64,000 nucleotides of DNA, taken from NCBI GenBank assembly GCA_902781455.1, contig CACZJF010000003.1, positions 1-64,000 on the forward strand, given 5' to 3'. Positions within the stretch are counted from its first letter, which is position 1. Every line of letters starts with the position of its first letter. This document shows positions 27,827 through 48,327 of the stretch, piece by piece. The notes under the pieces are model-generated. The model made no database searches. It was not told the origin of the DNA and was given only the letters and a program-made list of their open reading frames with translations. A program made the translations under genes and the position numbers. Source of the stretch: an uncultured Lachnospiraceae bacterium (GTDB lineage: Bacteria > Bacillota > Clostridia > Lachnospirales > Lachnospiraceae).

Positions 27827-27843
27827 CTCATCAAAAACAGCCA

Positions 27844-30299: not shown

Positions 30300-30317
30300 G
30301 AATCAACTGAATAAGTA

Positions 30318-30511: not shown

Positions 30512-30579
30512 ATATGGGTACAGGAGCTGATCCGGGTCACGAGTAACTGACCGTACTGAAAGAGCAGGGAAGAATCATT

Positions 30580-30703: not shown

Positions 30704-32290
30704 GTGAAGAAAAGAACAACGTCGGTGATCCTTGCAGCAGTCTTTGCGTCTGCATTGCTTCTGGGCAGTCTGCATGCCGCGGAAACAGAGCCCGGGCAGG
30801 GCGCGGAAACAGAATCCGGTCAGGCCGCGGAAACGGCACAGCTGATTGACGCGATCTATGTGCAGGAATGGAATGATGACACGTACGATCTGTGCGAACA
30901 GGCGAAAGCTTCCTGGGACGCATTGACCGATGAAGAAAAGGAGTCAGTGGAGGGCGAATACGCGGATCCGGATTACTTTGGGAGAGACACAGGCGACGCG
31001 TCGAAGGATGATCCTCTGAACGCGGACGAGATCGGAGAAAATGAAATCCTCGTGGTCAGCTTCGGTACATCGTTCAATGACAGCCGCGTCGAGGATATCA
31101 AAGGAGTAGAGGACGCGATTGCTGCCGCATATCCGGACTGGTCTGTCCGGAGAGCTTTCACCGCGCAGATTATCCTCAATCATATCTATGCGAGAGATGG
31201 AGAGAAGATTGACAACATCGAGCAGGCGCTGGAGAGAGCTGTGGAAAACGGAGTGAAGAATCTTGTGATCCAGCCGACGCATCTGATGCACGGAGCGGAG
31301 TATGATGAGATCATCGCAGCGCTGGAAGCGTACCGGGATCAGTTTGAAACAGCAGCAGTAGCCGAGCCTCTGCTGGGCGAAGTGGGAGCGGATATCGCAG
31401 ACATCAACGAGGATAAGCAGATCGTTGCCGAAGCTGTCACAAAAGAGGCGGTCCGTGCGGCGGGATATGATTCCCTCGAAAGTGCCTCGCAGGACGGAAC
31501 AGCCTTTGTGCTGATGGGCCATGGGACTGCGCATACCGCGAAAGTCAGCTACAGCCAGATGGCTTCCCAGATGAAAGCGCTGCATTATGACAATGTGTTC
31601 ATCGGAACAGTGGAAGGGGAGCCAGAGGAAACTTCCTGTGAGCATGTGATAGAAGAAGTAAAGAACGCCGGATATACGAAGGTTGTGCTCCGTCCGCTGA
31701 TGGTAGTCGCCGGAGATCATGCCAACAATGACATGGCCGGAGATGAGGATGATTCCTGGAAAAGCATGTTTACCGCTTCCGGTGCATTTGACAGCATCGA
31801 CTGTCAGGTGGAAGGACTTGGAAGAATCGAAGCGGTCAAGGATCTGTATGTATCTCATACGTCTGCGGCCATTGAGGAACCGGAGCACGCGGAGGCGCCG
31901 GAAACGGAGAGTGAGGCAGTCTCCGCCGCGCTTCCGGACGGGGAATATGATGTCATATTTCAGACAGACAGCAATATGTTCAGGATCAATGAGGCCCTTC
32001 ATGACACAGCGCGTCTCACGGTGAAAGACGGAAAGATGACCGTGCACATCAGCCTTGCTTCGCAGAATATTGTGAATCTGTTTCCGGGCATTGCTGAGGA
32101 TGCGGCAAAAGAAGGGGCAAAGCTTCTGGAACCAACCAGGGATGAAGTAACCTACAGCGATGGTATGACGGAGACGGTGAATGGATTTGATGTTCCGGTT
32201 CCGGCCCTTGATACGGAGTTTGACCTTGCGTTGATCGGCACCAAGGGGAAATGGTATGACCATAAGGTCATGGTTTCCTCCCCGGAGTGA
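30704..32290 (+). CDS. cbiK: Exported sirohydrochlorin cobaltochelatase (CbiK) with an extra C-terminal domain
   Basis: CbiK inserts cobalt into sirohydrochlorin (precorrin-2 level) in the anaerobic B12 route. The start is GTG 30704 after AAGGAGG. The 528-residue chain has a signal peptide (MKKRTTSVILAAVFASALLL to HAA), a small domain at 45-110, the chelatase at 112-390 and an added domain at 409-528. Chelatase marks are ILVVSFGTSFNDSR, QPTHLMHGAEY, His273 in LMGHGTAH and His339 in VAGDHANNDMAGDE, matching the two metal-binding histidines of the family. The C-terminal domain (MTVHISLAS, then FDVPVPALD and WYDHKVMV) resembles the N-terminal domain of the next protein. A cytoplasmic role would need the signal to be ignored. 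Confidence 0.88.
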   Translation: MKKRTTSVILAAVFASALLLGSLHAAETEPGQGAETESGQAAETAQLIDAIYVQEWNDDTYDLCEQAKASWDALTDEEKESVEGEYADPDYFGRDTGDASKDDPLNADEIGENEILVVSFGTSFNDSRVEDIKGVEDAIAAAYPDWSVRRAFTAQIILNHIYARDGEKIDNIEQALERAVENGVKNLVIQPTHLMHGAEYDEIIAALEAYRDQFETAAVAEPLLGEVGADIADINEDKQIVAEAVTKEAVRAAGYDSLESASQDGTAFVLMGHGTAHTAKVSYSQMASQMKALHYDNVFIGTVEGEPEETSCEHVIEEVKNAGYTKVVLRPLMVVAGDHANNDMAGDEDDSWKSMFTASGAFDSIDCQVEGLGRIEAVKDLYVSHTSAAIEEPEHAEAPETESEAVSAALPDGEYDVIFQTDSNMFRINEALHDTARLTVKDGKMTVHISLASQNIVNLFPGIAEDAAKEGAKLLEPTRDEVTYSDGMTETVNGFDVPVPALDTEFDLALIGTKGKWYDHKVMVSSPE

Positions 32291-32315
32291 TTGTGGGCGA
32301 TCAGAGAGGGATTCT

Positions 32316-33926
32316 ATGCGGATACGGAAAAAGTCATTTTTCAGTCTGCTGTTTTTCATTCTTGTCATGATGACAGCCTCCTGCACCATGCAGGAGGTTT
32401 CTCTGGCAGCGTCCGGACAGGAAGAAACGAGACACTATGAGATTACGCTGGAAGGCGGTACGGGGAAAGCAGGCATTCAGTCTCCGGTTGAAGTTCGGTT
32501 CAAAGACGGCAGCATGACGGCGCGCCTTGTCTGGACCAGCAAAAATTATGACTATATGATCGTGGACGGGATCCGGTATGACAATGAAAACGCCGGGGGC
32601 GATTCCACCTTTACGATTCCGGTGAAGCGTCTGGACCAGCCGCTTCCGGTGATCGGTGACACGGTTGCCATGAGCGAGCCGCACGAGATCGCATATGTCA
32701 TCTACTGGGGCGAGGAAGTGGACAGCGGAGCAGGCACGGACAGCCGAGCAGAAGCGGACGACGGCGGGGAGGCGGACACGGACGGTGGCGGGGAAGCGGA
32801 CAGCGGAGCAACCTCGGAACCGTCGGAAACTGAGCAGACGGAAACAGCGCTGGCTGCTGAGGCAATGCGCCGCAGCGGGCTGTCCGAAACCGGAAGCCTT
32901 TCCCTTCTGTACGCGGATCAGTTCGATGTCCGTTTCTACGGGGACTGCACACTGATTCACATAGAAAACACCGGTGACTACCTGCTGATTCCGGAAGGCG
33001 GGAAGGCGCCGGACCAGCTTCCGGAAGATGTCGTGGTGCTGGAAAAGCCTCTGGACACTGCTTATCTGGTGTCCAGCTCCGCGGCGGACCTGATTGAACA
33101 CTGTGGGGCGCTGGACAATATCAGGCTCTCCGGTGTCAGAAAGAGTGACTGGTACAATGCAGCGATCCGGACGGCGATGGAAGAGGGCAGAATTCTCTAT
33201 GCAGGGAAATACAGAGCGCCGGACTATGAGAAGATCCTCGCGGCAGGATGTGACCTTGCGATCGAGAATACGATGATCTTCCATGAGCCTGCGGTGAAGG
33301 AGAAGCTGGAAGAACTTGGCATTCCTGTCCTGGTGGAGCGCTCAAGCTATGAAACACACCCGCTCGGCCGGCTGGAATGGATCAAGCTGTACGGGGTTTT
33401 GTTTGACTGCCAGACGGAAGCGCAGGCGTACTTTGACCGCCAGATGGAAGCAGTCAGACCGATTCTTGAAAAGAAGAGAGATACCGGAAAAACGGTCGTC
33501 TTTTTCTACATTACGGCAGGCGGTCTGGTCAATGTTCGCAGGCCGGGGGATTATATCACGAAGATGATTGAACTGGCCGGCGCAAAGAGCGCGCTTTCAC
33601 GTACAGGCAACGGGGAGGAGTCCTTCTCCTCCATGAACATGCAGATGGAGGATTTCTATCAGGATGCGGCGGACGCGGATATTCTGATCTACAACAGCAC
33701 GATCGGCGGGGAGATCACCTCTGTGGAAGAACTGCTTAAGAAGAGTTCTCTTTTTCAGGATTTCAAGGCAGTGAAAGAAGGCAATGTATATTGTACCCAG
33801 AGAAGTCTCTTTCAGCAGACTTCGGGCATGGCAGATTTTCTGCTGGACCTGGACGCGGTGATTCATGAAGAAGACAGGGACTTTGTGTATTTGAACAGAC
33901 TGGAATCATCCGAAACCAATTCCTGA
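32316..33926 (+). CDS. Corrinoid/metal-chelate ABC transporter binding lipoprotein with an N-terminal accessory domain
   Basis: The start at 32316 follows GAGAGGGATTCT. The 536-residue product begins with a lipoprotein-like signal (FFILVMMTASC, Cys near residue 19). It then has a beta-rich domain (about 38-130: YEITLEGGTGKAGIQSP, DGSMTARLVWTSKNYDYMIV, FTIPVKRLDQPLPVIGDT), a Gly/Asp/Glu-rich linker, and a FepB/BtuF-type binding domain from about 190 (YADQFDVRFYGD, AYLVSSSAADLIEHC, VLVERSSYETHPLGRLEWIK, VKEGNVYCTQ). The accessory domain belongs to a type often attached to haem or metal transport proteins in gut Firmicutes. It feeds the permease and ATPase downstream. Corrinoid is the likely cargo because of the B12 riboswitch. 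Confidence 0.85.
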   Translation: MRIRKKSFFSLLFFILVMMTASCTMQEVSLAASGQEETRHYEITLEGGTGKAGIQSPVEVRFKDGSMTARLVWTSKNYDYMIVDGIRYDNENAGGDSTFTIPVKRLDQPLPVIGDTVAMSEPHEIAYVIYWGEEVDSGAGTDSRAEADDGGEADTDGGGEADSGATSEPSETEQTETALAAEAMRRSGLSETGSLSLLYADQFDVRFYGDCTLIHIENTGDYLLIPEGGKAPDQLPEDVVVLEKPLDTAYLVSSSAADLIEHCGALDNIRLSGVRKSDWYNAAIRTAMEEGRILYAGKYRAPDYEKILAAGCDLAIENTMIFHEPAVKEKLEELGIPVLVERSSYETHPLGRLEWIKLYGVLFDCQTEAQAYFDRQMEAVRPILEKKRDTGKTVVFFYITAGGLVNVRRPGDYITKMIELAGAKSALSRTGNGEESFSSMNMQMEDFYQDAADADILIYNSTIGGEITSVEELLKKSSLFQDFKAVKEGNVYCTQRSLFQQTSGMADFLLDLDAVIHEEDRDFVYLNRLESSETNS

Positions 33927-34062
33927 CGAAACGATCCGTCATTGACTTTGGCAGCGCACAGCGCGAAACAATCCGTAATCGACTTTGGCAGCGCGAAGCG
34001 CGAAACAATCCGTAATCGGCTTTGGCAGCGCGCAGCGTGAAACAATCCGTAATCGGCTTTGG
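33927..34062 (+). repeat. 37-bp tandem repeat, three and two-thirds units
   Basis: Units begin at 33927, 33964, 34001 and 34038. Each full unit reads YGAAACRATCCG, then TCATTGAC or TAATCGRC, then TTTGGCAGCGC and a GCG ending; the last unit is cut short after CTTTGG. Each full unit carries a small GCGC-NNN-GCGY palindrome. The array starts at the stop codon of the binding protein and ends about 15 bases before the permease start, so it sits inside the operon. Confidence 0.95.
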
Positions 34063-34077
34063 AAGGTGAATTATTTG

Positions 34078-35085
34078 ATGAATACAAAGAGATATGCGGC
34101 GGTTTTCTCCCTGGCGGCCGTGTTCATCGCACTGCTCCTTTGGATCAATCTCTCTTTCGGAAGCGCAGAGATATCCGTCCCGGAGCTCTTTCGGATTCTG
34201 TCCGGGGGCGGCGATGAGATGAATCGCAATATTATCTGGAATATCCGGCTGCCGAGAGCTGTTTCGGCAGTCTGGCTGGGCGGGGGACTGGCTCTGTCAG
34301 GGTATCTGCTTCAGACTTTTTTCGGCAACCCGATCGTCGGGCCGTTTGTTCTGGGCATCTCTTCCGGCGCGAAGCTGATGGTGGCACTTACGATGATCTG
34401 GTTCCTGTCAGCGGGGAGAAACCTGAGTCAGGCGGTTATGGTCCTTGCAGCGTTTGCGGGCGCGCTGATCTCGATGGGGTTTGTGCTCCTGATTTCTCTG
34501 AAAGTAAAGAAAATGAGCGTCCTCGTGGTCTGCGGCATCATGATTGGCTATATCTGTTCTGCCATAACGGACTTTGTTGTCACATTCGCGGACGATTCCA
34601 ACATTGTCAATCTGCATAACTGGTCCATGGGGAGCCTGTCCGGCATGAACTGGGATCAGGTCAGGGCGGTCTGCGTGATTACAGTGACCGGGCTGGTACT
34701 GACAGTACTGATGATCAAACCGGTGAGTGCGTACCGGCTGGGAGAAGCCTACGCAAGAAGCGCAGGAGTGAATATTATGCTGCTCCGGGTGATGCTGATT
34801 CTGGTCTCCAGCCTCCTTGCCGCCTGTGTAACCGCATTTGCCGGTCCGATTTCTTTTGTCGGAATTGCGGTTCCGCATCTTGCCAGGACAGCGGTAAACA
34901 GCAATGCGCCCAGGGTGATGATTCCCGCCTGCTTTCTTGGCGGCGCGGCTGTTACGCTTCTGTGTGACTTTGCTGCCCGGACGGTGTTCGCGCCGACAGA
35001 AGTAAGCATCAGTTCCGTGACGGCAGTTCTGCTGGTTCCGGTCGTGATCTTCATGATGATAAAACCAAAACACAGGGATATGTGA
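34078..35085 (+). CDS. Corrinoid/iron-chelate ABC transporter permease (BtuC/FecCD family)
   Basis: A 335-residue membrane protein with about nine or ten hydrophobic segments and the FecCD family marks: IIWNIRLPRAVSAVWLGGGL, LALSGYLLQTFFGNPIVGPF, VLGISSGAKLM, NLHNWSMGSLSGMNWDQV and PISFVGIAVPHLARTAV. The frame is open from 33985 through the tandem repeat, but ATG 34078 with GGAAGGTG upstream gives the natural N-terminus. Its stop overlaps the GTG start of the ATPase-CbiP fusion by four bases. B12 specificity is inferred from the riboswitch and neighbours. Confidence 0.92.
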   Translation: MNTKRYAAVFSLAAVFIALLLWINLSFGSAEISVPELFRILSGGGDEMNRNIIWNIRLPRAVSAVWLGGGLALSGYLLQTFFGNPIVGPFVLGISSGAKLMVALTMIWFLSAGRNLSQAVMVLAAFAGALISMGFVLLISLKVKKMSVLVVCGIMIGYICSAITDFVVTFADDSNIVNLHNWSMGSLSGMNWDQVRAVCVITVTGLVLTVLMIKPVSAYRLGEAYARSAGVNIMLLRVMLILVSSLLAACVTAFAGPISFVGIAVPHLARTAVNSNAPRVMIPACFLGGAAVTLLCDFAARTVFAPTEVSISSVTAVLLVPVVIFMMIKPKHRDM

Positions 35086-37472
35086 GTATGGCAGACTGCA
35101 GAGGGATTCAGACACAGCAATTGAATATCGGGTATGACACGGACCTGATCCGGAAGATCTGCATCGAAGTGAAACCGGGTCAGATTGTCACTCTGATCGG
35201 CCCGAATGGCTGCGGCAAGACAACGCTTCTCAAAACCCTGACAGGTGAGCTGAAGGCCAGAGGCGGCTGCGTGTATCTTGACGGGAAAGACTTTTCTTCG
35301 ATGAAAGAGCGTGAAGCAGCCCGGCATATGTCCATGGTCATGACCGTCAGGGTGAATCCGGATCTGATGACATGCCGTGAGGTGGTGGAGCTCGGCCGGT
35401 ATCCCTATACGGGAAGAGCCGGGATTTTGTCCGGGAGAGATCATGAACTGGTCCGGGAGGCGATGGCGTGGACGAATGTGGAAGAGCTCGCGGAGACATT
35501 TTTCCAGAACATCAGCGACGGTCAGAGACAGCGCGTCATGCTTGCCCGCGCCATCTGCCAGGAGCCGGAGGTTCTGATTCTGGACGAGCCGACGTCCTAT
35601 CTGGATATCAGGCACAAGCTGGATCTTCTGGAAAAGATCCAAAGACTGGCGACGGAGAAGCAGATTGCCGTCCTGATGTCTTTGCATGAGCTGGAGATCG
35701 CGATGCGGATCTCCGATTACGCGGCTGCTCTGGGAGAAGGACGTGTCCTGCGGACAGGGCCTGTGCGGGAAGTATTTGAGGAGGCGTTCATCAGAGACCT
35801 CTATCAGATCAAAGACATGGATACGACGCTGCTTGGAAGCGCCTGCTGGTTTGAGAACAAGGAGGCTGACGGCGCGGAAAACGGCACGCAGGAAGACGTG
35901 AAAGAAGACGCGGAAGTATGGAAAGCAGAGCAGACCGCGTCTCCCGGCAAAGCCAGGGTGATCATGATCCAGGGAACCATGTCGAGTGCCGGCAAGAGTG
36001 TGATTGCGGCAGGACTGTGCAGAATCTTTGCCCAGGACGGTTACCGGACTGCTCCTTTCAAGTCCCAGAATATGGCGCTGAATTCCTGTGTCACGAAGGA
36101 AGGCCTGGAGATGGGCCGGGCACAGGTCATGCAGGCAGAGTGCGCGAAGACAGAGCCTGTGGCGGCCATGAACCCGATTCTGCTGAAGCCGGTTACGGAT
36201 CAGGGGTCACAGGTCATTGTGATGGGCCGTGTCAGGGGAAATATGAGTGCGGCGGACTATTATTCCCGCAGAAAGGAATACGTTCCATGTATTCTCGACG
36301 CGTTCCGGCAGCTGTCAGAAAGCAACGATGTTGTGGTTGTCGAGGGAGCAGGATCTCCTGTCGAACTCAATCTCAAGAAGGACGATATCGTGAATATGGG
36401 ACTGGCCGGCATGATCGACGCGCCCGTTCTTCTCGTCGGGGATATTGACAAAGGGGGCGTCTTTGCGCAGCTGATCGGAACGCTCGACCTTCTGGAGAAG
36501 GAGGAGCGCAGCCGGGTGAAGGGGGTTATCGTCAACAAATTCAGGGGGGATCAGAAGCTCTTTGAGAGCGGTGTCCGGATCCTGGAGGAAAAAGGAAGGA
36601 CAAAGGTTGTCGGTGTTGTTCCATATATGGACGTGAAGCTGGACGATGAGGATTCTCTGTCGGAGCGGTTCCTGGTCCGGCGCGGGCCGGTACAGGAACC
36701 GGAAGCAAAGCAGACAGCGGGAGATTCCGTTCAGATCGGGGTCATTCGCCTCCCGCATATCTCGAATTTTACAGACTTCAATCCGTTCGAGCAGCTTAGA
36801 TGTGTGACCGTAAGGTACGTCCGGTCTTTGCCGGAGCTTGACAATCCTGACATTATCATACTGCCCGGTTCCAAGAATACGATCCGGGATCTGAGATGGC
36901 TGAAGGAAACAGGCCTTGCGGCAGCCATAGAGGAGAAAGCTGCAAAAGGAACCATCCTGATCGGGATCTGCGGCGGCTTTCAGATGCTTGGAAACAGGAT
37001 CGAGGATCCGGAAGGGGTGGAATGCGGAGGCAGCGAAGAAGGACTTGGACTTCTTCGCGTGAACACGGTCCTGGGAGGAGAAAAGAAGCGCTCTGTCTTT
37101 GACGGCAGCATTGTTCATGCCACCGGGGTTTTGTCCCATCTTGCGGGCAGGAGTGTCCAGGGATATGAAATCCATATGGGAAGCACGTATCCGGACGGGG
37201 AAGTATATGAGTTTACGTCCGGGCAGACAGGGTATTGCCGGGACAATATCTACGGCAGTTATGTCCATGGTCTGTTTGACAGGGCAGAAATCATGACTTC
37301 GCTGATGGAGGCAGCCTGCAGCGCGCAAAACAAAGAGGCGGACATCAAAGGGGCTGTGGACTATGCTGCCTTCAAAGAGCAGCAGTATGACATCCTTGCA
37401 CAGACTTTGAGACAGAGCCTGGACATGGACTATCTTTACAGCATAATGGGACTGGTGAAACATGACACTTGA
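35082..37472 (+). CDS. Fusion of an ABC transporter ATPase (BtuD-like) with cobyric acid synthase (CbiP/CobQ)
   Basis: The 796-residue chain joins two proteins normally separate. Residues 1-250 are a FecE/BtuD-type ATPase: GPNGCGKTTLL (40-50), FFQNISDGQRQRVMLARAIC (signature) and VLILDEPTSYLD (Walker B). A polar acidic linker covers about 256-290. Residues 291-796 are CbiP, the glutamine-dependent amidase that aminates four carboxylates of cobyrinic a,c-diamide. They include GTMSSAGKSVIAAGLCRIF, KSQNMALNS, VVEGAGSPVELN, GDIDKGGVFAQ, Cys630 in GICGGFQMLG and His729 in YVHGLFD. GTG 35082 overlaps the permease stop. Both halves keep their catalytic residues, so both should work. Confidence 0.95.
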   Translation: MSMADCRGIQTQQLNIGYDTDLIRKICIEVKPGQIVTLIGPNGCGKTTLLKTLTGELKARGGCVYLDGKDFSSMKEREAARHMSMVMTVRVNPDLMTCREVVELGRYPYTGRAGILSGRDHELVREAMAWTNVEELAETFFQNISDGQRQRVMLARAICQEPEVLILDEPTSYLDIRHKLDLLEKIQRLATEKQIAVLMSLHELEIAMRISDYAAALGEGRVLRTGPVREVFEEAFIRDLYQIKDMDTTLLGSACWFENKEADGAENGTQEDVKEDAEVWKAEQTASPGKARVIMIQGTMSSAGKSVIAAGLCRIFAQDGYRTAPFKSQNMALNSCVTKEGLEMGRAQVMQAECAKTEPVAAMNPILLKPVTDQGSQVIVMGRVRGNMSAADYYSRRKEYVPCILDAFRQLSESNDVVVVEGAGSPVELNLKKDDIVNMGLAGMIDAPVLLVGDIDKGGVFAQLIGTLDLLEKEERSRVKGVIVNKFRGDQKLFESGVRILEEKGRTKVVGVVPYMDVKLDDEDSLSERFLVRRGPVQEPEAKQTAGDSVQIGVIRLPHISNFTDFNPFEQLRCVTVRYVRSLPELDNPDIIILPGSKNTIRDLRWLKETGLAAAIEEKAAKGTILIGICGGFQMLGNRIEDPEGVECGGSEEGLGLLRVNTVLGGEKKRSVFDGSIVHATGVLSHLAGRSVQGYEIHMGSTYPDGEVYEFTSGQTGYCRDNIYGSYVHGLFDRAEIMTSLMEAACSAQNKEADIKGAVDYAAFKEQQYDILAQTLRQSLDMDYLYSIMGLVKHDT

Positions 37473-38550
37473 TACGCTACTGTCCATAACAGTCGAAGCG
37501 CCGGACGAATCTGTCCGCAGGAAGGCTCAGAGAAGATGGGACGCGATTGCGAAGCCGGTGGACGGACTGGGAAAATTCGAGGAGATTGTCTGCCGGGTGG
37601 CTTCGATTCTTCAGGATCCGCTGCCGGATCTGTCAAAAAAAGCGCTGATTATCATGTGCGCAGACAATGGCGTGACGAAAGAAGGGGTTACGCAGACGGA
37701 CCAGAGTGTGACACGCAAAGTGGCAGCACTGATGGGACAGGGAAAAAGCAGCGTGGGCATCATGACGAAGCATTACCCTGTGGACATATTCCCTGTGGAC
37801 GCAGGCATCAACAGTGACGAAACCCCGGAAGGCGTGATCGATCAGAAGGTGGCAAAAGGAACGGCTGATTTTCTGAAGATGCCTGCGATGTCCACGCAGG
37901 AGTGCCTGAAAGGGATTCAGGCAGGGATGGATAGCGTCAGGATGTGCGCGGAGCTCGGATACCGGATCATTGCCACGGGAGAGATGGGGATCGGGAACAC
38001 TACAAGCTCTGCGGCACTTCTGTGCGCGCTCACGGGAATCGCCCCTGAGACAGTCACAGGCAGAGGGGCAGGCCTGTCCGAGGGCGGTATGCAGCGAAAG
38101 CTGCACGTGATCCAGGACGCGCTGCAGCTTCATTTCGGAGAGAGGAAGCGTGCAGGGACATCCTCCGGGCGGGAGGCTTTTGAGGCGCTGAGAAGAGTGG
38201 GCGGCCTTGACCTCGCTGCCCTGACGGGAGTTTTTATCCAGGGCGCGGTCTGCAGGATTCCTGTGGTGATTGACGGACTGATCAGCGCGGTCGCGGCACT
38301 GTGCGCGGAGAAAATCGTCAAAGGCTGCAGTGCGTATATGATCGCTTCCCACCGTGGCAGGGAGCGGGGAACATGGGAAGCGCTGCGCCGTCTGGGCCTG
38401 GAGGCGGTGATTGACGCGGATCTGGCGCTTGGAGAAGGGAGCGGAGCTGTCATGCTGCTGCCGCTTTTGGATATGGCGATGCTGCTCTACCGGGAGGGGA
38501 CGCTCTTTTCTGAGATTGAGATGGAGCAGTATGAGAGGTTTCCCACATGA
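37462..38550 (+). CDS. cobT: Nicotinate-nucleotide--dimethylbenzimidazole phosphoribosyltransferase
   Basis: CobT makes alpha-ribazole phosphate from the lower-ligand base and nicotinate mononucleotide, starting nucleotide-loop assembly. The 362-residue chain shows DGLGKFEEIVCRVASIL, IIMCADNGVTKEGVTQTDQS, GEMGIGNTTSSAAL, VTGRGAGLSEGG and the catalytic-type Glu near the end in DLALGEGSGAVMLLPLLD. It overlaps the CbiP fusion by 11 bases and cobU by four, so translation is tightly coupled. Which base it activates cannot be told from sequence. Confidence 0.96.
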   Translation: MTLDTLLSITVEAPDESVRRKAQRRWDAIAKPVDGLGKFEEIVCRVASILQDPLPDLSKKALIIMCADNGVTKEGVTQTDQSVTRKVAALMGQGKSSVGIMTKHYPVDIFPVDAGINSDETPEGVIDQKVAKGTADFLKMPAMSTQECLKGIQAGMDSVRMCAELGYRIIATGEMGIGNTTSSAALLCALTGIAPETVTGRGAGLSEGGMQRKLHVIQDALQLHFGERKRAGTSSGREAFEALRRVGGLDLAALTGVFIQGAVCRIPVVIDGLISAVAALCAEKIVKGCSAYMIASHRGRERGTWEALRRLGLEAVIDADLALGEGSGAVMLLPLLDMAMLLYREGTLFSEIEMEQYERFPT

Positions 38551-39047
38551 TCATATTGGTGACCGGCACACACAACAGCGGAAAGTCTGCCCTGGCGGAG
38601 GAGCTGGCGATCGGGACCAACGATCCGGTCCGGTACTACCTGGCCACGATGGAAGTGCTTGATGAGGCCGGCAGAAAACGGGTCTTGAAACATCGCCGGC
38701 TAAGGGAAGGGAAAGGCTTTCTTACCATCGAGAGAACCTGCGATGTCACGAAAGCGCTTTCCGATATGAAGGATGCAGCACGGTCGGTCGTTCTTCTGGA
38801 GTGTATGGCGAACCTTGTGGGAAATGAGATGCACCGCGAAACCAGTCTGGAGGAGCGTTCCTTTGTAAGCCGCATCCTGGGGGATATTCAATTCCTGGCT
38901 GCCCATGTTCACAACCTGATTGTCGTGACGAATACCTATGAGAAAGATGCCGAAGGATATGATGACGAAACCAGGGCGTATGTCAGGCTGCTGGATCTTG
39001 TAAATGAGAGGCTGCTGGAATACGCCGACGCCGTATACAGGCGGTGA
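38547..39047 (+). CDS. cobU: Adenosylcobinamide kinase / adenosylcobinamide-phosphate guanylyltransferase
   Basis: CobU phosphorylates adenosylcobinamide and then attaches GMP, activating it for CobS. The 166-residue protein is close to normal length. It has the P-loop GTHNSGKSALAEEL (7-20), YYLATMEVLDE, the region KHRRLREGKGF with His49 as probable guanylylation site, and VVLLECMANLVGNEM. The start overlaps the cobT stop (ATGA). The DETRAYVRLLDLVNERLLEY tail is typical. Confidence 0.92.
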   Translation: MIILVTGTHNSGKSALAEELAIGTNDPVRYYLATMEVLDEAGRKRVLKHRRLREGKGFLTIERTCDVTKALSDMKDAARSVVLLECMANLVGNEMHRETSLEERSFVSRILGDIQFLAAHVHNLIVVTNTYEKDAEGYDDETRAYVRLLDLVNERLLEYADAVYRR

Positions 39048-39102
39048 GCATACAGCCCGGCCATGATGCCCATTTATGCCTGGGTAGAAAGGATACAGAC
39101 GG

Positions 39103-39891
39103 TTGAAGATCTTCAGATGGATGGCTGTCTCACTATCGCTGTACAGCCGGATTCCGATGCCGCGTCTGACATACGCGGAAGACGACATGCAGTACAGTCT
39201 GATCTGGTTTCCGCTGGTCGGGGTTGTGATCGGGGCGCTCATATGCCTGGTGAACATCCCGGACTGTATGAGAGAAGTGCCGGCTGCGGTCAGGATCCTG
39301 CTGAGTCTTTTGATTCCGGTCATCATAACCGGAGGGTTTCATATAGACGGGTTTATGGACACAGAGGACGCGTTGCGTTCCTATGCGCCAGTGAAAAAAA
39401 AGCTTGAGATTCTCAAGGATCCTCACATCGGTGCCTTTGCCGTGATCGGACTGGTCAGAACAGGCCTGATCTTTGCACTGGCCGTGACAGTGATCGTTCT
39501 TTATTCCCAAAGCAGCACGGACAACATCCTGCTTTTTGCCGCGGTGTTCGTGATCGGACGAATCCTGAGCGGCCTGACTTCTCTTCTTTTCCGGAAAGCA
39601 AAAAAGGACGGGATGCTCCGTAAGGAAACGGCAGGGAACCGGAGTGGTGTGATCTGGTGCCTGGCGGTTTGGCTTCTTATATCCGTTGGCTTTGTCCTGT
39701 ACGTGGAGATCGGAAAGGGTGTGCTGCTTCTTCTTGCCTTCGGCGCGTCCACGGCCTGGTACAGGCATCGCGCGTACAGGCTTTTCGGCGGTGTGACAGG
39801 AGATACGGCAGGGCATTATCTGGTATCGGCACAGACCATGGCAGCATCCGTTCTGGCTGCCGTGATTCTGATCAGCAGCCTCTGCCAATGA
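39103..39891 (+). CDS. cobS: Adenosylcobinamide-GDP ribazoletransferase (cobalamin synthase)
   Basis: CobS is the membrane enzyme that joins adenosylcobinamide-GDP to alpha-ribazole (phosphate). The 262-residue chain has about six hydrophobic segments and the family motifs LSLYSRIPMPRLTY near the N-terminus, YSLIWFPLVGVVIGAL, GGFHIDGFMDTEDALRSY (acidic metal motif) and KDPHIGAFAVIG. The start is probably TTG 39103 (MKIFRWMAV) with AAAGGA upstream; ATG 39121 is an alternative. It follows cobU by 55 bases. Confidence 0.93.
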   Translation: MKIFRWMAVSLSLYSRIPMPRLTYAEDDMQYSLIWFPLVGVVIGALICLVNIPDCMREVPAAVRILLSLLIPVIITGGFHIDGFMDTEDALRSYAPVKKKLEILKDPHIGAFAVIGLVRTGLIFALAVTVIVLYSQSSTDNILLFAAVFVIGRILSGLTSLLFRKAKKDGMLRKETAGNRSGVIWCLAVWLLISVGFVLYVEIGKGVLLLLAFGASTAWYRHRAYRLFGGVTGDTAGHYLVSAQTMAASVLAAVILISSLCQ

Positions 39892-39957
39892 TCTGCAGTC
39901 AGGAAAGTGTGCTGAGGCAGACAGAGTGAAGCATTTGCCGTCCAGGCAGGAGAAAGT

Positions 39958-40578
39958 ATGGCACGGAAAAGAGTATACCTGATCCGGCATGGGAAGACAC
40001 CGGGCAACGCGCTGAGAAAATACATCGGAAGGGGGACGGACGAAGCGCTTTCCCCGGAAGGAATGGAAGAGGCAGAGCGCTGCAGACGGTTGACTGACTC
40101 CATGCAGGATTTTCAACAGGACGCGCTGCGCGTATGCGCAAGCCCGATGATCAGGGCACTGCAGACGGCCGGAATTCTTTTTGACAGGCCCGTGACAGCC
40201 ATCAGGGCCCTGGAAGAGATGGATTTTGGTTTGTTTGAAGGGAAAGAGGAAAAAGAGCTGTCGAAGCTGTCTTCCTGGCAGAGCTGGGTGGACGGGGGCT
40301 GCATGGGACAGGTTCCGGGCGGAGAGAATCTGGACGGCTTTATCGACCGGTCTTATGCAGGTTTTCTGGAAGCGCTTGGGGACAAGGCGCTGGACGAGAC
40401 CATCGCCATCGTCTGCCATGGGGGAACGATCATGGCGGTTTTATCAAGGCTTACCGGGGAGCCGTATTTCTCTTTCATGGTACACAATCTGTGTGGATAC
40501 AGGCTGGATCTGGAGACAGAAGATGAGAACATACATCTGGTATCATATGACCGCTTTGGTGGCGGGGATCCTGCTTGA
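39958..40578 (+). CDS. cobC: Alpha-ribazole phosphatase-like histidine phosphatase
   Basis: The 206-residue protein is a histidine phosphatase of the phosphoglycerate-mutase-like superfamily, with catalytic His11 in YLIRHGKTPGNA, Arg in ASPMIRALQTAG, Glu in EEMDFGLFEGKEE and the second His in IAIVCHGGTIMA. In this operon it most likely removes the phosphate in nucleotide-loop assembly. AGGAGAAAGT precedes the start. Its end overlaps the cbiB start by 56 bases in another frame. Confidence 0.88.
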   Translation: MARKRVYLIRHGKTPGNALRKYIGRGTDEALSPEGMEEAERCRRLTDSMQDFQQDALRVCASPMIRALQTAGILFDRPVTAIRALEEMDFGLFEGKEEKELSKLSSWQSWVDGGCMGQVPGGENLDGFIDRSYAGFLEALGDKALDETIAIVCHGGTIMAVLSRLTGEPYFSFMVHNLCGYRLDLETEDENIHLVSYDRFGGGDPA

Positions 40579-41530
40579 CCTGGCGGTCGGAGACCCTCAC
40601 TGGTTTCCCCACCCGGTCCGTCTGATCGGGGCTTATATCTCCCGGCTGGAAAGAAGGCTGTATCCGGAAGCAAAAACCGGGATCCGGAGGGATCCTCAGC
40701 TTGAACAGGAAAGAGGAACGATCCTCTGGCTTCTGGTCTTCCTGACCGTGATGGCTGTGACAGGCGCTGTCATGGCGGCGGCGTACCTGATTCACCCGGT
40801 CTTCGGAATGGCGGCTGAGGCAGTGATGACCTGCTGCGCCCTGGCAGCCAGAAATCTTTCTTCGGAGAGCAGGAAAGTGGGAAGGATCCTGGACCAAAAT
40901 GACCTGACGGGTGCAAGACGGGCTTTGTCGATGATTGTCGGACGGGACACGGAGGCACTTGGACAGGAGGAGATCATACAGGCAGCAGTGGAGACCGTTG
41001 CGGAGAATACTTCAGACGGCGTCATCGCACCTCTTTTGTATGCAGCGCTTGGGGGTCCCGTTCTCGGATTCGGATACAAGGCAGTCAATACCATGGACTC
41101 CATGCTCGGATACCGCAATGAGCGGTATGAGTCCTTTGGAAAAAGGGCAGCGCGGATGGATGACGCTTTCAACTTTGTTCCGGCGAGAATCAGCGCGGTT
41201 CTGATGATTCTGTCCGCCTGGATGCTCGGTCTTTTTTCAAAGGCATTCAATGGTAAGGAGGCATACAGGATCTGGAAGCGGGACAGGCGCAAACATCTGT
41301 CTCCCAATGCTGCCCAGACGGAGAGCGCCTGCGCAGGGGCACTGGGTCTTCGGCTTGGAGGAGCGCATCTGTATGGGGGAGTCCTGGTGAAAAAACCGGC
41401 GATCGGCGACGCACGAAGAAAACCTGTAACGGAGGATATTGCCAGGGCTGCGCGCTTGATGTACCTGTCGGAATGCCTTGCCGCGGTCTTTGCAGGAGGG
41501 ATCCTGGGGTTGATTTTGGCAGGTTTATGA
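40523..41530 (+). CDS. cbiB: Adenosylcobinamide-phosphate synthase
   Basis: CbiB joins adenosylcobyric acid with (R)-1-aminopropan-2-ol phosphate (or aminopropanol) at the membrane. The 335-residue chain opens with a hydrophobic segment and [20 protein letters not shown], the family signature, followed by [53 protein letters not shown] and [21 protein letters not shown]. The start at 40523 lies within the end of cobC, with GGAG upstream; the frame is open from 40226 but that part is a cobC shadow. The next gene starts 181 bases later after a GC-rich gap. Confidence 0.94.
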   Translation: [335 protein letters not shown]

Positions 41531-41711: not shown

Positions 41712-42344
41712 ATGCAGATTCAGAACGTGAGTCCTGAAGAAATTGAAAAAAAGAGCTTTGAGATCATTTCCCGCACCCTGAAGGAGACGGGAGTTGTGCC
41801 TGACAGGGAGAATGCTTCCGTGATCATGCGCTGCATTCATGCATCGGCTGACTTTGATTACGCCCGGACGCTGACATTTTCGAAGGACGCTGTTGGCATC
41901 ATGAAAAAACTGATTCTGGGCGGAGCGGACATTGTCACCGATACCAATATGGCAAAAGCCGGCATCAACCAGAACAGGCTGTCCCTGTACGGCGGGACAG
42001 TGCGCTGTTTTATGGCGGAAGAAGACGTGAGGACAGAGGCGAAAGCGCGCCGGACGACGCGGGCCGCTGTTTCCATGGAACGGGCAGCGAGGCTGAACAG
42101 GCAGGTCATATTCGCGATCGGCAATGCGCCGACCGCGCTGATCCGGCTTCACGAAATGATGCAGGAAGGAATCTTCCGGCCGGACTTTGTCATCGGTGTC
42201 CCGGTCGGCTTTGTCAATGTGATTCCGGCAAAAGAACTGTTCGCCGCGTCCGATGTCCCGCACATCATCAACCGCGGTCCAAAAGGAGGGAGCAGCATCG
42301 CGGCGGCCATCTGCAACGCGGTGCTCTATGAGCTGCCTTCCTGA
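41712..42344 (+). CDS. cbiC: Cobalt-precorrin-8 methylmutase
   Basis: CbiC moves the C11 methyl to C12, giving cobyrinic acid. The 210-residue chain is typical, with SFEIISRTLKETG, RCIHASADFDYA containing the catalytic His, ADIVTDTNMAKAGIN, FAIGNAPTALIRL, VIGVPVGFVNVIPAKE and NRGPKGGSSIAAAICNAVLY. GGAAGAGGTCAGGC precedes the ATG. The 181-base gap before it is unusually long for this operon and contains GC-rich repeats (GCGCACCGCG occurs twice) but no recognisable riboswitch. Confidence 0.96.
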   Translation: MQIQNVSPEEIEKKSFEIISRTLKETGVVPDRENASVIMRCIHASADFDYARTLTFSKDAVGIMKKLILGGADIVTDTNMAKAGINQNRLSLYGGTVRCFMAEEDVRTEAKARRTTRAAVSMERAARLNRQVIFAIGNAPTALIRLHEMMQEGIFRPDFVIGVPVGFVNVIPAKELFAASDVPHIINRGPKGGSSIAAAICNAVLYELPS

Positions 42345-42419
42345 CGGCACTGTCAGATATGATTCATCTCATTTTATTTCGGTTTGTACCGCTGATTCAG
42401 CGGTGGACGGGAGACTCTT

Positions 42420-43586
42420 ATGAGAAAGGGTTTTACGACGGGAAGCTGCGCTGCGGCCGCGGCCAAGGCTGCGGCGTGGATGCTTCTTGGCGGCGGCCGG
42501 AAAGAACAGATTGAAATCATCACGCCGGTTGGGATCCGTTACAAAGCGCGGATTGAGGAAATATCGGTCCGTGAAGATGCTGTCTGCTGCGCCGTGCGCA
42601 AGGACGCCGGGGATGATCCTGATATCACGGATCAGATGCTCATCTACGCGAAGGTGAGCCGTACTCTCGATGTACCGGATCCTGGGCCAGAGGGCAGAGT
42701 GAATCCGGATGATCCGGTTCGTTCAGGCAAAGAGAGCGCAGCCGGAAAGATCTATATCCGGGGCGGCAGAGGCATCGGGCGTGTCACACGGCCGGGACTG
42801 GACCAGCCGGTCGGCTGTGATGCCATCAATTCTGTACCGCGGGCGATGATCCGGAAAGAAGTCGGATCTGTGATGGAACTTTTTGATTACCGGGGCTTTC
42901 TGACCGTAGAGATCTTTGCGCCGGAAGGAGAGGAGCTGGCAAAAAGGACATTTAACCCGAGGCTGGGAATCGAAGGGGGCATCTCCATCATCGGGACGAC
43001 AGGGATTGTGGAACCGATGAGCACCAGGGCGATCCTGGATACCATCCGGGTCGAGATCTCCCAGAAGAAGGCGATGGGAGAAAGTGTGCTGGTTGTGGTG
43101 CCGGGAAATTACGGCCTGCAGTTTCTGAAGGACCGATATGGATTTGATCCACAAAAGGCTGTCAGATGCTCGAACTTCATCGGTGATACGATCGATATGG
43201 CAAAAGAGGCCGGCATGAGGAAGCTTGTTCTGTGCGGCCATGTGGGAAAGCTGATCAAGCTGTCGGGCGGCATCATGAATACCCATTCCAGGGAAGGGGA
43301 CTGCCGGCTGGAACTGCTGGCTGCGGCGGCTCTCAGATGCCATGCGCCCAGTCAGATTCCGGAGCGCATCCTGGCATGCGCAACGGCAGAGGAAGCCTGT
43401 ACGATTCTGCAGGAAGAAGGACTGGGAAGGCAGTGCTTTCCTCTGATCATGGACCGGATCCATTTTTACCTGAAAAAACGTGCCGGATTGCAGCCGGAAA
43501 CGGAATGCCTGATGTACTCGAATCAGTATGGGCTTCTGGGAGCGACAAAAGGCGCGGAGGAATTCTTTATGGGGGAAATGACATGA
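42420..43586 (+). CDS. cbiD: Cobalt-precorrin-5B (C1)-methyltransferase
   Basis: CbiD is specific to the anaerobic pathway and methylates C1 of cobalt-precorrin-5B. The 388-residue chain begins MRKGFTTGSCAAAAAKAAAW, the family signature, then has DDPDITD, GRGIGRVTRPGLDQPVG, GISIIGTTGIVEPMS and GNYGLQFLKDRYGF. It ends inside the start of cbiF (four-base overlap ATGA). The chain is full length with no odd insert. Its presence with CbiG marks early cobalt insertion. Confidence 0.96.
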   Translation: MRKGFTTGSCAAAAAKAAAWMLLGGGRKEQIEIITPVGIRYKARIEEISVREDAVCCAVRKDAGDDPDITDQMLIYAKVSRTLDVPDPGPEGRVNPDDPVRSGKESAAGKIYIRGGRGIGRVTRPGLDQPVGCDAINSVPRAMIRKEVGSVMELFDYRGFLTVEIFAPEGEELAKRTFNPRLGIEGGISIIGTTGIVEPMSTRAILDTIRVEISQKKAMGESVLVVVPGNYGLQFLKDRYGFDPQKAVRCSNFIGDTIDMAKEAGMRKLVLCGHVGKLIKLSGGIMNTHSREGDCRLELLAAAALRCHAPSQIPERILACATAEEACTILQEEGLGRQCFPLIMDRIHFYLKKRAGLQPETECLMYSNQYGLLGATKGAEEFFMGEMT

Positions 43587-44347
43587 TACGTTTCGTAGGA
43601 GCCGGCCCCGGCGCAGTGGATCTCATTACAGTCCGCGGTATGGAATATCTGAAGAGAGCGGACGTGGTCATCTATGCCGGAAGCCTCGTCAACCCGGCAT
43701 TGCTGGAGTACGCGCCCAGGAAGGCAAAGATCTGCAACAGTGCGTTCATGACGCTGGAGGAAGTGATGGATGTCATGATCAGCGCGGATGCTTCCGGCCA
43801 GGAGGTGGTCAGGCTCCACACAGGAGATGCCAGCCTGTACGGCGCCGTCAGGGAACAGATGGACCTGCTTGACAGCCATCATATTCCATATGAGTCATGT
43901 CCCGGTGTCAGTGCCTGTTTCGGCGCTGCGGCAGGACTGAATCTGGAGTTTACGCTGCCGGGTATCACCCAGACTCTGATTGTTACCAGGCTTGCCGGAA
44001 AAACAGCTGTGCCGGAGAAGGAAAAGCTGAGACTTCTGGCCTCTCATGGATCTTCCATGGCCATTTACCTGAGCGCGGGGATGCTCGGAGCGCTTTCCGC
44101 GGAACTGCTCGCGGGCGGATACGCGCCGGACACGCCTGCCGCGATTGTCTACAAGGCGACATGGCCGGAAGAAAAAACAGTGATGTGTACGGTGAAAACG
44201 CTGGAGGAGGCGGGCAGGCAGCACCAGATTACGAAAACCGCGGTTGTTCTGGTGGGAGATGTTCTTCTTTCCAACGGGGCATATGAAAGGTCCAGACTTT
44301 ACAGCCCGGACTTCAGTACACAGTTCAGACAGGCGAAAGAGGACTGA
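43583..44347 (+). CDS. cbiF: Cobalt-precorrin-4 (C11)-methyltransferase
   Basis: CbiF uses S-adenosylmethionine to methylate C11. The 254-residue protein has FVGAGPGAVDLITVRGMEYL at the N-terminus, VVIYAGSLVNPALL (the CbiF-type YAGSLV), VRLHTGDASLYGAVREQ, CPGVSACFGAAAGLNLEFTL and YKATWPEE. The start overlaps the cbiD stop by four bases; the longer open frame from 43232 lies in the cbiD region and is not used. A three-base gap leads to cbiG. Confidence 0.95.
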   Translation: MIRFVGAGPGAVDLITVRGMEYLKRADVVIYAGSLVNPALLEYAPRKAKICNSAFMTLEEVMDVMISADASGQEVVRLHTGDASLYGAVREQMDLLDSHHIPYESCPGVSACFGAAAGLNLEFTLPGITQTLIVTRLAGKTAVPEKEKLRLLASHGSSMAIYLSAGMLGALSAELLAGGYAPDTPAAIVYKATWPEEKTVMCTVKTLEEAGRQHQITKTAVVLVGDVLLSNGAYERSRLYSPDFSTQFRQAKED

Positions 44348-44350
44348 ACG

Positions 44351-45367
44351 ATGAAAAAGACAGCGGTCTGCTTTACGAAAAAGGGCAGAGAGGTCATAAA
44401 AAGGATCAACCAGGAGTGCCAAAAGCAGGGACTGAGCCTCTGGAACGCCTATACCTTTCTGAAACCGAATCAAGAATCGGAAGAAGAGAAAAAAGAAGAC
44501 TGCCCGGGGTTTACGAGAGTGGAAGGATCGCTGGAAGACTGGACAAGGGAGCGCTTCGGCAGCGGGCATGCCCTTTTGTTTGTCGGAGCGGTGGGCATCG
44601 CCGTGAGGGCGCTGTCTCATCTTCCGAAGGACAAGCTCAGTGACAGTCCGGTTCTGGTCGTGGATGACAATGCCAGGTTTGTGATTCCCATTCTGTCAGG
44701 CCATATGCAGGGCGCAAATAAGATGGCAGCAGTCCTGGCGAAGCTGCTTGGCGCTGTGTGCGTCATTACCACTTCAACCGATGTCAACGGCGCATTTTCG
44801 GCGGACGTATTCGCGGCGGAGCACAGACTGAATATTCGGAACAGGGAAGGGATCAAGGCGGTATCCGCCAAAGCGATTGAAGGAAAAAGCATCACGCTTT
44901 CGATCAAGCATTATCCGCCCTCCGGGCCGGTTGATGTCATAGTGGCAGACGAGACAGACGCGGAATATTCCCTTCTGCTCAGTCCGAAGCCATACACGGT
45001 GGGACTTGGCATGAAGAAGGGGAAGGACGCCGGAGAGGTGGAGCAATTTTTCCTCGGGACGCTTCAGGAAGCAGGCATTTGCCCGGAAGAGGTATACGCC
45101 ATCTGTACGATTGACCTGAAAGAAGAGGAAGCAGCGGTCAGAGCGCTCAGGGACAAATACCGGATTCCGGTTCTTGCTTTTGACAAAGACCTGCTGCGGA
45201 AGGCGGAAGGCGTGTTTCATTCCTCGGATTTTGTGTACAGAACCGTGGGCGTGGACAATGTCTGTGAGCGGGCGGCCGTGCTGGGAGCGGGGCCGGACGG
45301 GGTACTGGTCCAAAGCCGGAAAGCAGGTGATGGTATGACAATTGCCATCGGAAAGAGAAACAGGTAA
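44351..45367 (+). CDS. cbiG: Cobalt-precorrin-5A hydrolase
   Basis: CbiG opens the delta-lactone and releases acetaldehyde during ring contraction in the anaerobic pathway. The 338-residue chain shows LFVGAVGIAVRALSHLPKDK, SPVLVVDDNARFVIPILSGH, TTSTDVNGAFSADVFA in the N-terminal half and a C-terminal domain starting PYTVGLGMKKGKDAGEVEQF, with AVLGAGPDGVLVQSRKAGDG near the end. It is complete, separate from CbiH (the two are fused in some organisms) and starts three bases after cbiF. Confidence 0.94.
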   Translation: MKKTAVCFTKKGREVIKRINQECQKQGLSLWNAYTFLKPNQESEEEKKEDCPGFTRVEGSLEDWTRERFGSGHALLFVGAVGIAVRALSHLPKDKLSDSPVLVVDDNARFVIPILSGHMQGANKMAAVLAKLLGAVCVITTSTDVNGAFSADVFAAEHRLNIRNREGIKAVSAKAIEGKSITLSIKHYPPSGPVDVIVADETDAEYSLLLSPKPYTVGLGMKKGKDAGEVEQFFLGTLQEAGICPEEVYAICTIDLKEEEAAVRALRDKYRIPVLAFDKDLLRKAEGVFHSSDFVYRTVGVDNVCERAAVLGAGPDGVLVQSRKAGDGMTIAIGKRNR

Positions 45368-45372
45368 CAGAC

Positions 45373-46101
45373 ATGGGGAAGATCTATGTGGTCGGGATCG
45401 GTCCGGGCTGCAGCCGGATGATGACAGAGCAGGCGAAAGAGTTGCTTCGCGGATGCGATGTCATCGTCGGTTACAGAACATACGTGGACCTGGTCAGGGA
45501 AGAATTCTCCGGCAAGGTATTTTATGAAAGTGCTATGCGGCAGGAGACGGAACGCTGTCTCAAATGCATCGAATTTGCTTCGGAAGGAAAAACCGTCGCC
45601 CTGATCTGCAGCGGAGACGCAGGAATCTACGGCATGGCATCTCCCCTGCTGGAAATGGCAGACAGGGAGGGCTTTTCCGATGTGGAGATCATCCCCGGCA
45701 TCACTGCGGCCAGCAGCGGGGCAGCGCTTCTGGGCGCGCCGATCGGGCATGATGTATGCCTGATCAGTCTGAGCGATCTTCTGACTGACTGGGCGTTGAT
45801 CGAGAAGAGACTGCTCTGCGCGGCAGAAGGGGATTTTTGCATCGTCCTCTACAACCCCGCAAGCAAAAACAGAAAAGACCATCTGAGCAAAGCCTGTAAG
45901 ATCCTTCTGACCAGGCTGCCGCCGGATACACCGTGCGGCTATGTGCGGAAGATCGGAAGAGAAGGAACGCAGAAGAAAACCTGCACACTGGAGGAACTCA
46001 GGACGGTGGAAGCTGACATGTTTACGACGGTTTTTATCGGCAGCAGCAGGACGAAGATTGCGGGTGACTGGTTGATCACGCCGAGAGGATTTCGATTATG
46101 A
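45373..46101 (+). CDS. cbiH: Cobalt-precorrin-3B (C17)-methyltransferase
   Basis: CbiH methylates C17 and triggers ring contraction. The 242-residue protein has KIYVVGIGPGCSRMMTEQAK, DVIVGYRTYVDLV, ALICSGDAGIYGMASPLLEM, IIPGITAASSGAALLGAPIG, HDVCLISLSDLLTDW and FCIVLYNPASKNRKDHL. The last two motifs are typical of CobJ/CbiH rather than other corrin methyltransferases. It starts five bases after cbiG and its stop overlaps the start of the triple-fusion gene. Confidence 0.95.
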   Translation: MGKIYVVGIGPGCSRMMTEQAKELLRGCDVIVGYRTYVDLVREEFSGKVFYESAMRQETERCLKCIEFASEGKTVALICSGDAGIYGMASPLLEMADREGFSDVEIIPGITAASSGAALLGAPIGHDVCLISLSDLLTDWALIEKRLLCAAEGDFCIVLYNPASKNRKDHLSKACKILLTRLPPDTPCGYVRKIGREGTQKKTCTLEELRTVEADMFTTVFIGSSRTKIAGDWLITPRGFRL

Positions 46102-48209: not shown

Positions 48210-48327
48210 ATGCACCTTTCAAACTTTCGCCGCACGGAAGGCAGCTGACGCTGCCGCATACCCCGGCGCAGCCAGGCCGGCGGCAGGATGCAATGACTGA
48301 CCTCAGCCGGCAGAGGGAAAAGCAGAT

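Follow-up and report, generated by a model that had tools for sequence, protein, structure and literature searches.

Introduction

An exported CbiK that binds cobalt, CbiKP, is described in Desulfovibrio vulgaris (PMC4063343), and a study of 2004 placed cbiK-cbiL and btuCDF of Desulfovibrio under the control of a B12 element (PMC545781). Shelton et al. predicted salvagers of tetrapyrrole precursors, mostly Firmicutes, which have kept the corrin genes and are missing the early ones (PMC6461909), and a review puts precorrin-2 salvagers at 0.6% (PMC8123684). CbiK is mentioned as transporting sirohydrochlorin in a paper of 2025 on the rumen (PMC12654859). Here, we analyse 64,000 nucleotides of an uncultured Lachnospiraceae bacterium (contig CACZJF010000003.1, positions 1 to 64,000; 'the window'), which encode a predicted exported CbiK with a C-terminal domain (domain A), a lipoprotein consisting of another domain (domain B) and a substrate-binding domain (SBP), and an importer of the BtuC/BtuD type.

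NEAT domains are the haem-shuttle fold of Isd systems, and FetB is also called IhtB. We take Protein Data Bank (PDB) entry 9b86 to be FetB of Porphyromonas gingivalis and entry 2xvx ('chelatase, putative') to be the periplasmic CbiKP. Judging by genomes, a cobalt-inserting enzyme seems to be displayed outside the membrane in many gut bacteria, joined with carrier domains and an importer, by which they would acquire the half-made B12 ring of their neighbours and complete it internally.

Results

The predicted exported CbiK

The CbiK gene of the window starts with a GTG at 30704, with a GGAGGA site ahead, and the N-terminus of its product reads as an export signal ending at LHA/AE (both by eye). 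A sequence-only reading of the stretch had claimed an export signal and an added C-terminal domain (residues 409-528), and both were borne out. The protein passes the gathering score of the Pfam family CbiK (PF06180; 238.6 versus 26.2 bits) and misses the cut-off of the CbiK equivalog NF047852 (192.7 versus 400). Its best PDB match is 9b86, heme-binding protein FetB (E = 1.1e-41), followed by 1qgo (1.8e-37) and 2xvx (2.4e-29). Residues E199, H273 and H339, which correspond to the E, H and H presumed to be the metal-site residues of CbiK, are invariant in all 109 aligned rows (the window being counted twice).

For comparison, 110 loci were collected, 30 of them from genomes of the family, counting that of the window, and 80 others, the best among 586; three domain A sequences are identical between the two sets. 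When a loose pattern was applied to the N-termini of 108 of these loci (two, open at the 5' end, were skipped), 98 were classed as lipobox, nine, including the window, as signal peptidase I type and one as neither. CbiK is predicted from these signals to lie outside the cytoplasm. Among 20 more distant CbiK, an export or lipoprotein signal is present in 16 and absent in four. The window's own genome, a metagenome assembly of 2.39 Mb rated 81% complete, gave no further CbiK and no CbiX-like match besides the window CbiK.

The CbiK domain of the window is preceded by a conserved, helical-looking stretch (LIDAIYVQEW...QAKASWDALT; 30839-31003) which matched no Pfam family above cut-off; a COX4 match (E = 0.0087) was judged spurious. 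A second group of exported CbiK (loci L113-L128) is 44-53% identical and consists mostly of lipoproteins, and its open reading frames (ORFs) in genomes G174 and G048 end in an apparent domain B.

Domains A and B and their relation to NEAT

Domain A occurs in all 110 loci and domain B in 90 of them. Profiles of 107 distinct A and 89 distinct B sequences were aligned by hhalign with a probability of 94.5% over 81 columns, spanning columns 9-109 of the A profile and 2-82 of the B profile; 45 sequences of each gave 91.8%. In each direction 100 column shuffles all stayed below the real score, the highest at 29% and 62%. Reversed profiles gave 2.4% and 1.2%, and seven control segments from CbiK, SBP and CbiD gave at most 2.2%. 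Because all these controls score below the real comparison, the likeness of A and B goes beyond chance. The sequence-only reading had held that the N-terminal domain of the lipoprotein is akin to the C-terminal domain of CbiK and had named a profile-profile comparison as its check; the significant similarity found here upholds that claim. It had also described a common order of motifs, of which the first two pairs (DGKMT/DGSMT and FDVPVPALD/FTIPVKRLD) fall inside the alignment; the closing strand with its His lies outside and is matched by eye only. The NEAT likeness of both domains and the riboswitch at 30308-30526 were absent from that reading.

Pfam NEAT is the family matched most often by A and B rows. 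At E <= 1, 26 of 45 A rows matched it, the strongest at 2e-5, as did 24 of 45 B rows, the strongest at 6.9e-7; at E 0.001 it was matched by 24 of 63 rows of relatives (best 1.4e-8). Against an alignment of 40 NEAT segments, grown from whole-genome NEAT matches, hhalign gave 96.6% for A and 95.0% for B, and none of 100 column shuffles reached the real score in either case. A PDB search with profile A returned 24 sequences at E <= 10, namely 4h8p (E = 0.021) and 4h8q (0.034), each an iron transport-associated domain; 3sik (0.039) and 3sz6 (0.049), titled conserved domain protein and presumably NEAT; and, further down, IsdA (4myp, 0.32), followed by galectin-8 (18 sequences) and a single surface protein of a streptococcus. 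The haem ligand motif of NEAT domains is YxxxY in the last strand. The NEAT profile alignment ends before that strand, and the closing strand is WYDHKV in A and PHEIAY in the window B (pattern PHEIxY). The profile relation between A, B and NEAT provides good, not final, evidence of kinship, since shuffles do not imitate other beta-sandwich folds.

Shuffling of the four parts

The 83 loci with all four parts (the window included) show seven of the eight possible patterns of fusion and splitting, some of their ORFs running past the locus end. With fusions written as hyphens and gene boundaries as strokes, CbiK-A / B-SBP was counted 39 times, CbiK-A / B / SBP 12 times, CbiK / A-B / SBP 11 times, CbiK-A-B / SBP eight times, all parts separate seven times, CbiK / A / B-SBP four times and CbiK / A-B-SBP twice. 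Order, strand and a span of 7 kb are kept in 78 of the 83. Of the remaining 27 loci, 18 are without B and SBP and nine without SBP, and some of them end nearby; because domain A was part of the query used to find loci, those lacking it are under-represented. This free exchange of fusion joints between CbiK, A, B and SBP suggests that the chelatase, both domains and the binding protein act jointly on one cargo outside the membrane.

Predicted control by B12

A cobalamin riboswitch was found upstream of CbiK in 38 of 40 related loci (19/20 and 19/20), these being L002-L030, six from the 80-locus set and five of the second exported type. Of the two loci without one, L020 begins inside CbiK and L118 shows none in ~590 upstream bases. 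The window locus is predicted to be under B12 riboswitch control, and the presence of this element would tie the set to B12 supply and not to iron. In the second exported group the riboswitch lies upstream in four of the five loci searched.

Upstream tetrapyrrole genes in 200 genomes

The genomes of 200 members of the family, the window's own included, were searched for CbiK, HemB, CbiD, CbiL, HemC, SUMT and precorrin-2 dehydrogenase. Exported CbiK was found in about one third of them (69/200), 68 of which are among the 120 with CbiD. These 120 genomes comprise 48 with exported CbiK only (38 close to the window type and ten of the second type, which bear export or lipoprotein signals), 20 with exported and cytosolic CbiK, 44 with cytosolic CbiK only and eight with no CbiK. 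For the first exported type (53 genomes) the N-terminus was inspected in 30, and the other 23 were assigned by similarity (E < 1e-140).

HemC is present in 11 of the 48 exported-only genomes, in all 20 with both types, in 41 of the 44 with cytosolic CbiK only and in one of the eight without CbiK. In the same order, the counts are 6, 16, 29 and 2 for HemB (that of G149, 24.1 bits, was not counted), 14, 20, 41 and 1 for SUMT, 15, 20, 41 and 2 for the dehydrogenase and 26, 18, 44 and 3 for CbiL, the CbiL set consisting of 89 matches above cut-off plus G062, G009 and G011, which are just below cut-off or cut. Genomes with any cytosolic CbiK (n = 64) thus have HemB in 45 cases and HemC, SUMT and the dehydrogenase in 61 each. 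For HemC, the comparison of exported-only genomes with these 64 gave a Fisher p of 2.4e-16, which ignores kinship; the eight CbiD-containing genomes without CbiK were excluded from the two-group tests and from the tree. When 112 genomes were placed on a tree of the CbiD gene (not a species tree), HemC and cytosolic CbiK were linked with phi 0.748, a value reached by none of 1000 simulations (maximum 0.507); SUMT likewise gave 0/1000. By parsimony, HemC and cytosolic CbiK each change 21 times on this tree.

HemB, HemC, SUMT and the dehydrogenase are all absent from 33 of the 48 exported-only genomes and from 20 of the 30 of those that are at least 95% complete. None of the four was found above cut-off in the window's own genome at its 81% completeness.

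A mix-up of cytosolic and exported CbiK was checked in part and rejected: none of 40 presumed cytosolic CbiK has a clear export signal, G010 among them being cut by a contig end and G027 and G046 being doubtful. Nine of the 40 have ~260-345 residues ahead, and their starts resemble cytosolic enzymes (by eye). Some cytosolic CbiK are fused to other proteins (L295-L302, L304 and L305). Seven of the nine long ORFs open with what looks by eye like an ABC ATPase, perhaps the CbiO component of a cobalt importer; of the other two, that of G059 starts CbiH-like and that of G081 combines HemC and CbiK. CbiK and CbiL share one ORF in G008.

Corrin genes kept by these genomes

The neighbourhood of CbiD, in stretches of at most 20 kb, was inspected in the 20 genomes of at least 95% completeness without upstream genes; genes missed here may lie outside these stretches. 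CbiG, CbiH and CbiJ were found in 19 each, CbiF in 18, CbiE and CbiA in 17 and CbiC and CbiT in 15. The matches lie on one strand in 19 of the 20 (G196 is mixed), and gaps of ~1-1.3 kb, often beside CbiB, could hold further genes; the gap in G180 is 6.8 kb. The order CbiK, A, B, SBP, BtuC, BtuD and then cbi genes was seen in G004, G043, G158 and G169, with the cbi genes directly after BtuD in G004 and with CobQ and others intervening in G158 and G169. Genomes unable to make the substrate of CbiK thus keep an exported CbiK near the genes that act on what it makes, which would most simply be explained by a supply of this substrate from outside. In the window's own genome CbiC, D, F, G, H, J, E, T and A are present, and CbiL was not found above cut-off, which leaves the corrin ring pathway incomplete. 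Corrin clusters without a recognizable CbiL occur in nine genomes of at least 95% completeness (G004, G043, G072, G075, G079, G131, G156, G158 and G193).

Binding domain and importer

The nearest solved relatives of SBP are Lmo2184 (E = 3.9e-10), presumably a haem binder, and 4ovk and IsdE (E = 3.1e-4). IsdE, the title of which states haem binding, is the NCBIfam model matched by most lipoprotein rows (38 of 49, far below cut-off) and the sole NCBIfam match of the window lipoprotein (27.8 versus 298.65), which gave no match to a curated BtuF. For the window permease BtuC is the best NCBIfam model, at 196.8 versus a cut-off of 334. Because no B12 binder is as close to SBP in sequence as IsdE and Lmo2184 are, the label BtuC-type is uninformative on the cargo. 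The external tetrapyrrole salvage proposed by the sequence-only reading gains from the domain shuffling, the riboswitch and the absence of upstream genes; its appeal to a BtuC-type importer says nothing firm about what is carried.

Layout of the window

The features of the locus are listed in Table 1. Among the later genes, CbiD, F, H, J, E, T and A pass their NCBIfam cut-offs and CbiC, CbiG, CobS and CobC have matches below theirs; CobT, CobU and CbiB were named by eye. CbiJ, CbiE and CbiT form a single ORF of 703 residues (46098-48209), and the fusion of the ABC ATPase to CobQ recurs in 15 of 28 adjacent pairs among relatives. The Asp/Gly/Ala-rich linker between domain B and SBP contains repeats (32715-32807), and a 37-base tandem repeat (3.7 copies, 91% matches; 33927-34062) separates the lipoprotein and permease genes. 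A tmRNA with the tag ADNNYQLAAA lies at 27483-27829.

Table 1. Features of the locus in window coordinates (aa, amino acids).
Feature	Position	Strand	Basis or remark
Cobalamin riboswitch RF00174	30308..30526	+	84 bits versus gathering score 31.5
Predicted exported CbiK with C-terminal domain A, 528 aa	30704..32290	+	Pfam CbiK E 9.9e-71; PDB matches
Export signal, residues 1-25, signal peptidase I-like	30704..30778	+	By eye and pattern search
CbiK chelatase domain, residues 115-391	31046..31876	+	Pfam CbiK E 9.9e-71
E199, equivalent to E89 of CbiK 1qgo	31298..31300	+	Alignment
H273, equivalent to H145 of 1qgo	31520..31522	+	Alignment
H339, equivalent to H207 of 1qgo	31718..31720	+	Alignment
Domain A, residues 409-528, NEAT-like	31928..32287	+	Profile comparison
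Lipoprotein, domain B plus SBP, 536 aa, lipobox TASC	32316..33926	+	
Domain B, about residues 38-130, NEAT-like	32427..32705	+	Profile comparison
Peripla_BP_2 binding domain (SBP), residues 253-495	33072..33800	+	Pfam E 1.4e-31
FecCD/BtuC-type permease	34069..35085	+	Pfam FecCD E 1e-78
ABC ATPase (BtuD type) fused to cobyric acid synthase CobQ, 796-aa ORF	35082..37472	+	
CobT, CobU, CobS, CobC, CbiB (later cobamide steps)	37462..41530	+	
CbiC, CbiD, CbiF, CbiG, CbiH, CbiJ-CbiE-CbiT fusion, CbiA	41712..49779	+	Corrin ring from CbiH onwards; no CbiL

Discussion

Proposed route and its rivals

In the route that we favour, a sirohydrochlorin-type tetrapyrrole produced by other cells would be caught outside the membrane, where the exported CbiK would put cobalt into it. 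Domains A and B, both NEAT-like, would then hand the cobalt tetrapyrrole to the haem-type binding domain, from which it would enter through the BtuC/BtuD-type ABC importer. Inside, CbiL (where present) and the enzymes from CbiH to CbiA would complete the corrin ring; a shortage of B12 would turn the set on through the cobalamin riboswitch. We regard capture and cobalt insertion outside, followed by import of the product for corrin completion, as having an even chance of being right. The same balanced judgement, which covers the explanation as a whole, applies to the locus as the head of a cobamide operon serving precursor salvage. A more specific form is put forward tentatively, at somewhat less than even: corrin synthesis would start outside, with the exported CbiK metallating a scavenged isobacteriochlorin and NEAT-like domains retuned from haem carrying the cobalt ring to the IsdE-like importer. 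Within that same tentative proposal, the isobacteriochlorin may be sirohydrochlorin or, where a strain has no CbiL, its 20-methyl derivative; siroheme could also serve, by metal exchange.

Metal exchange could also be the main activity, the exported CbiK swapping the iron of siroheme (or haem) for cobalt in a FetB-like manner with the remaining route unchanged. A, B and SBP resemble haem binders, the window CbiK has FetB as its best PDB match, and FetB of P. gingivalis is described in a review of 2026 as exchanging metals in porphyrins (PMC13402209), the reported swap being in protoporphyrin. We nevertheless consider this unlikely, as the riboswitch indicates B12 and not iron. Class II chelatases, moreover, mostly insert metals, and only siroheme could serve because haem is without the side chains needed for a corrin; haem as raw material was rejected on this chemistry. 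Improbable to the same degree is an importer of finished corrinoids, in which SBP and BtuCD would take up cobinamide or cobamides and CbiK, A and B would merely bind or present them. Such an importer would suit the cobalamin riboswitch, the permease for which BtuC is the best model (below cut-off) and the CobU, CobS and CbiB genes, which are usable for cobinamide salvage and lie nearby in the window and many relatives. It would, however, give no need to keep CbiC to CbiJ, and it explains neither why upstream genes are absent alongside an exported CbiK nor why the metal-site residues are invariant.

Capture and import of the metal-free tetrapyrrole, with the outside CbiK as a receptor and cobalt inserted later, appears quite improbable. 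The enzyme is described as transporting sirohydrochlorin and joining cobalt to it (PMC12654859, citing Lobo 2008), but the 33 exported-only genomes without upstream genes show no second CbiK, and no CbiX was found in the window's own genome, the only one searched for it. A general role of the module in gathering cobalt or iron, with no part in corrin synthesis, is the least likely of these alternatives and hardly credible: permeases of the FecCD type and SBP families do serve siderophores and haem too, but against it stand the riboswitch, the nearby cob and cbi genes and the association with absent upstream genes.

Several results weigh against the route that we favour. NEAT likeness is faint in single sequences: window domain A scores 18.9 bits against a PF05031 gathering score of 32.8, window domain B gave no NEAT match at E 1, and PDB searches with profile B, with a joint A-B profile and with one single B returned no NEAT entry. 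In the whole-genome search at E 0.001, a NEAT match at the exported-CbiK locus was obtained in only 11 of the 69 genomes (G074, G105, G119, G138, G160, G169, G171, G177, G180, G183 and G191), all below cut-off, and none at that locus in the other 58; the window's own genome gave none anywhere. Cytosolic CbiK is present in one member only of ten sister pairs, of which five agree with the HemC link, four are tied and one is opposed. Some upstream gene is retained in 15 of the 48 exported-only genomes, and six of them (G002, G029, G037, G083, G153 and G192) keep all four, so export of CbiK is not confined to auxotrophs; conversely, G062, G149 and G186 have cytosolic CbiK and lack all four. The riboswitch rate refers to exported-CbiK loci only. 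Lastly, CbiL is absent above cut-off from 17 of the 33 genomes, the window's own and G004 and G072, both rated 100% complete, among them. With CbiL missing, sirohydrochlorin alone would be insufficient in these 17; the methyl group at C20 would have to come with the salvaged ring or be added by another enzyme.

If the favoured route is true, the locus is a candidate entry machine for late precursors in bacteria predicted to finish but not start corrins. It would be the missing entry route of salvagers at the precorrin-2 level, with cross-feeding of B12 at the level of the unfinished ring. Counting any CbiK as proof of full B12 synthesis would then misfile such bacteria, and NEAT-type domains would serve more than haem iron.

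Comparison with known systems

Exported CbiK, haem relay of the NEAT type and BtuCD-type import are known already and are joined here; NEAT-like domains on an exported CbiK, their shuffling and a link to missing upstream genes had no description in the literature searched, which held few subscription papers. FetB of P. gingivalis is a CbiK-family protein outside the cell, as is predicted for the window CbiK, and is haem-related. The 9b86 chain (293 residues), unlike the window CbiK, has no room for A or B, and the host of FetB is Gram-negative. The window locus has a cobalamin riboswitch; to our knowledge, the FetB gene is not in a B12 operon. CbiKP likewise has no room for either domain (2xvx chain, 269 residues), and its accessible description draws no link to precursor auxotrophy, unlike that found for the exported CbiK here. 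A and B are like the NEAT domains (PF05031) of Isd systems in their distant profile relation, their surface or lipoprotein setting and their IsdE-like neighbour; they differ in that the window domains are below cut-off, in the closing strands WYDHKV and PHEIAY, and in predicted control by B12 rather than iron. The experiments of Shelton et al. concern 5-aminolevulinate, and the accessible text names no uptake route for later precursors (PMC6461909). The precursor salvagers predicted there resemble the exported-only genomes of this family, in which the corrin genes are kept and the early tetrapyrrole genes are missing.

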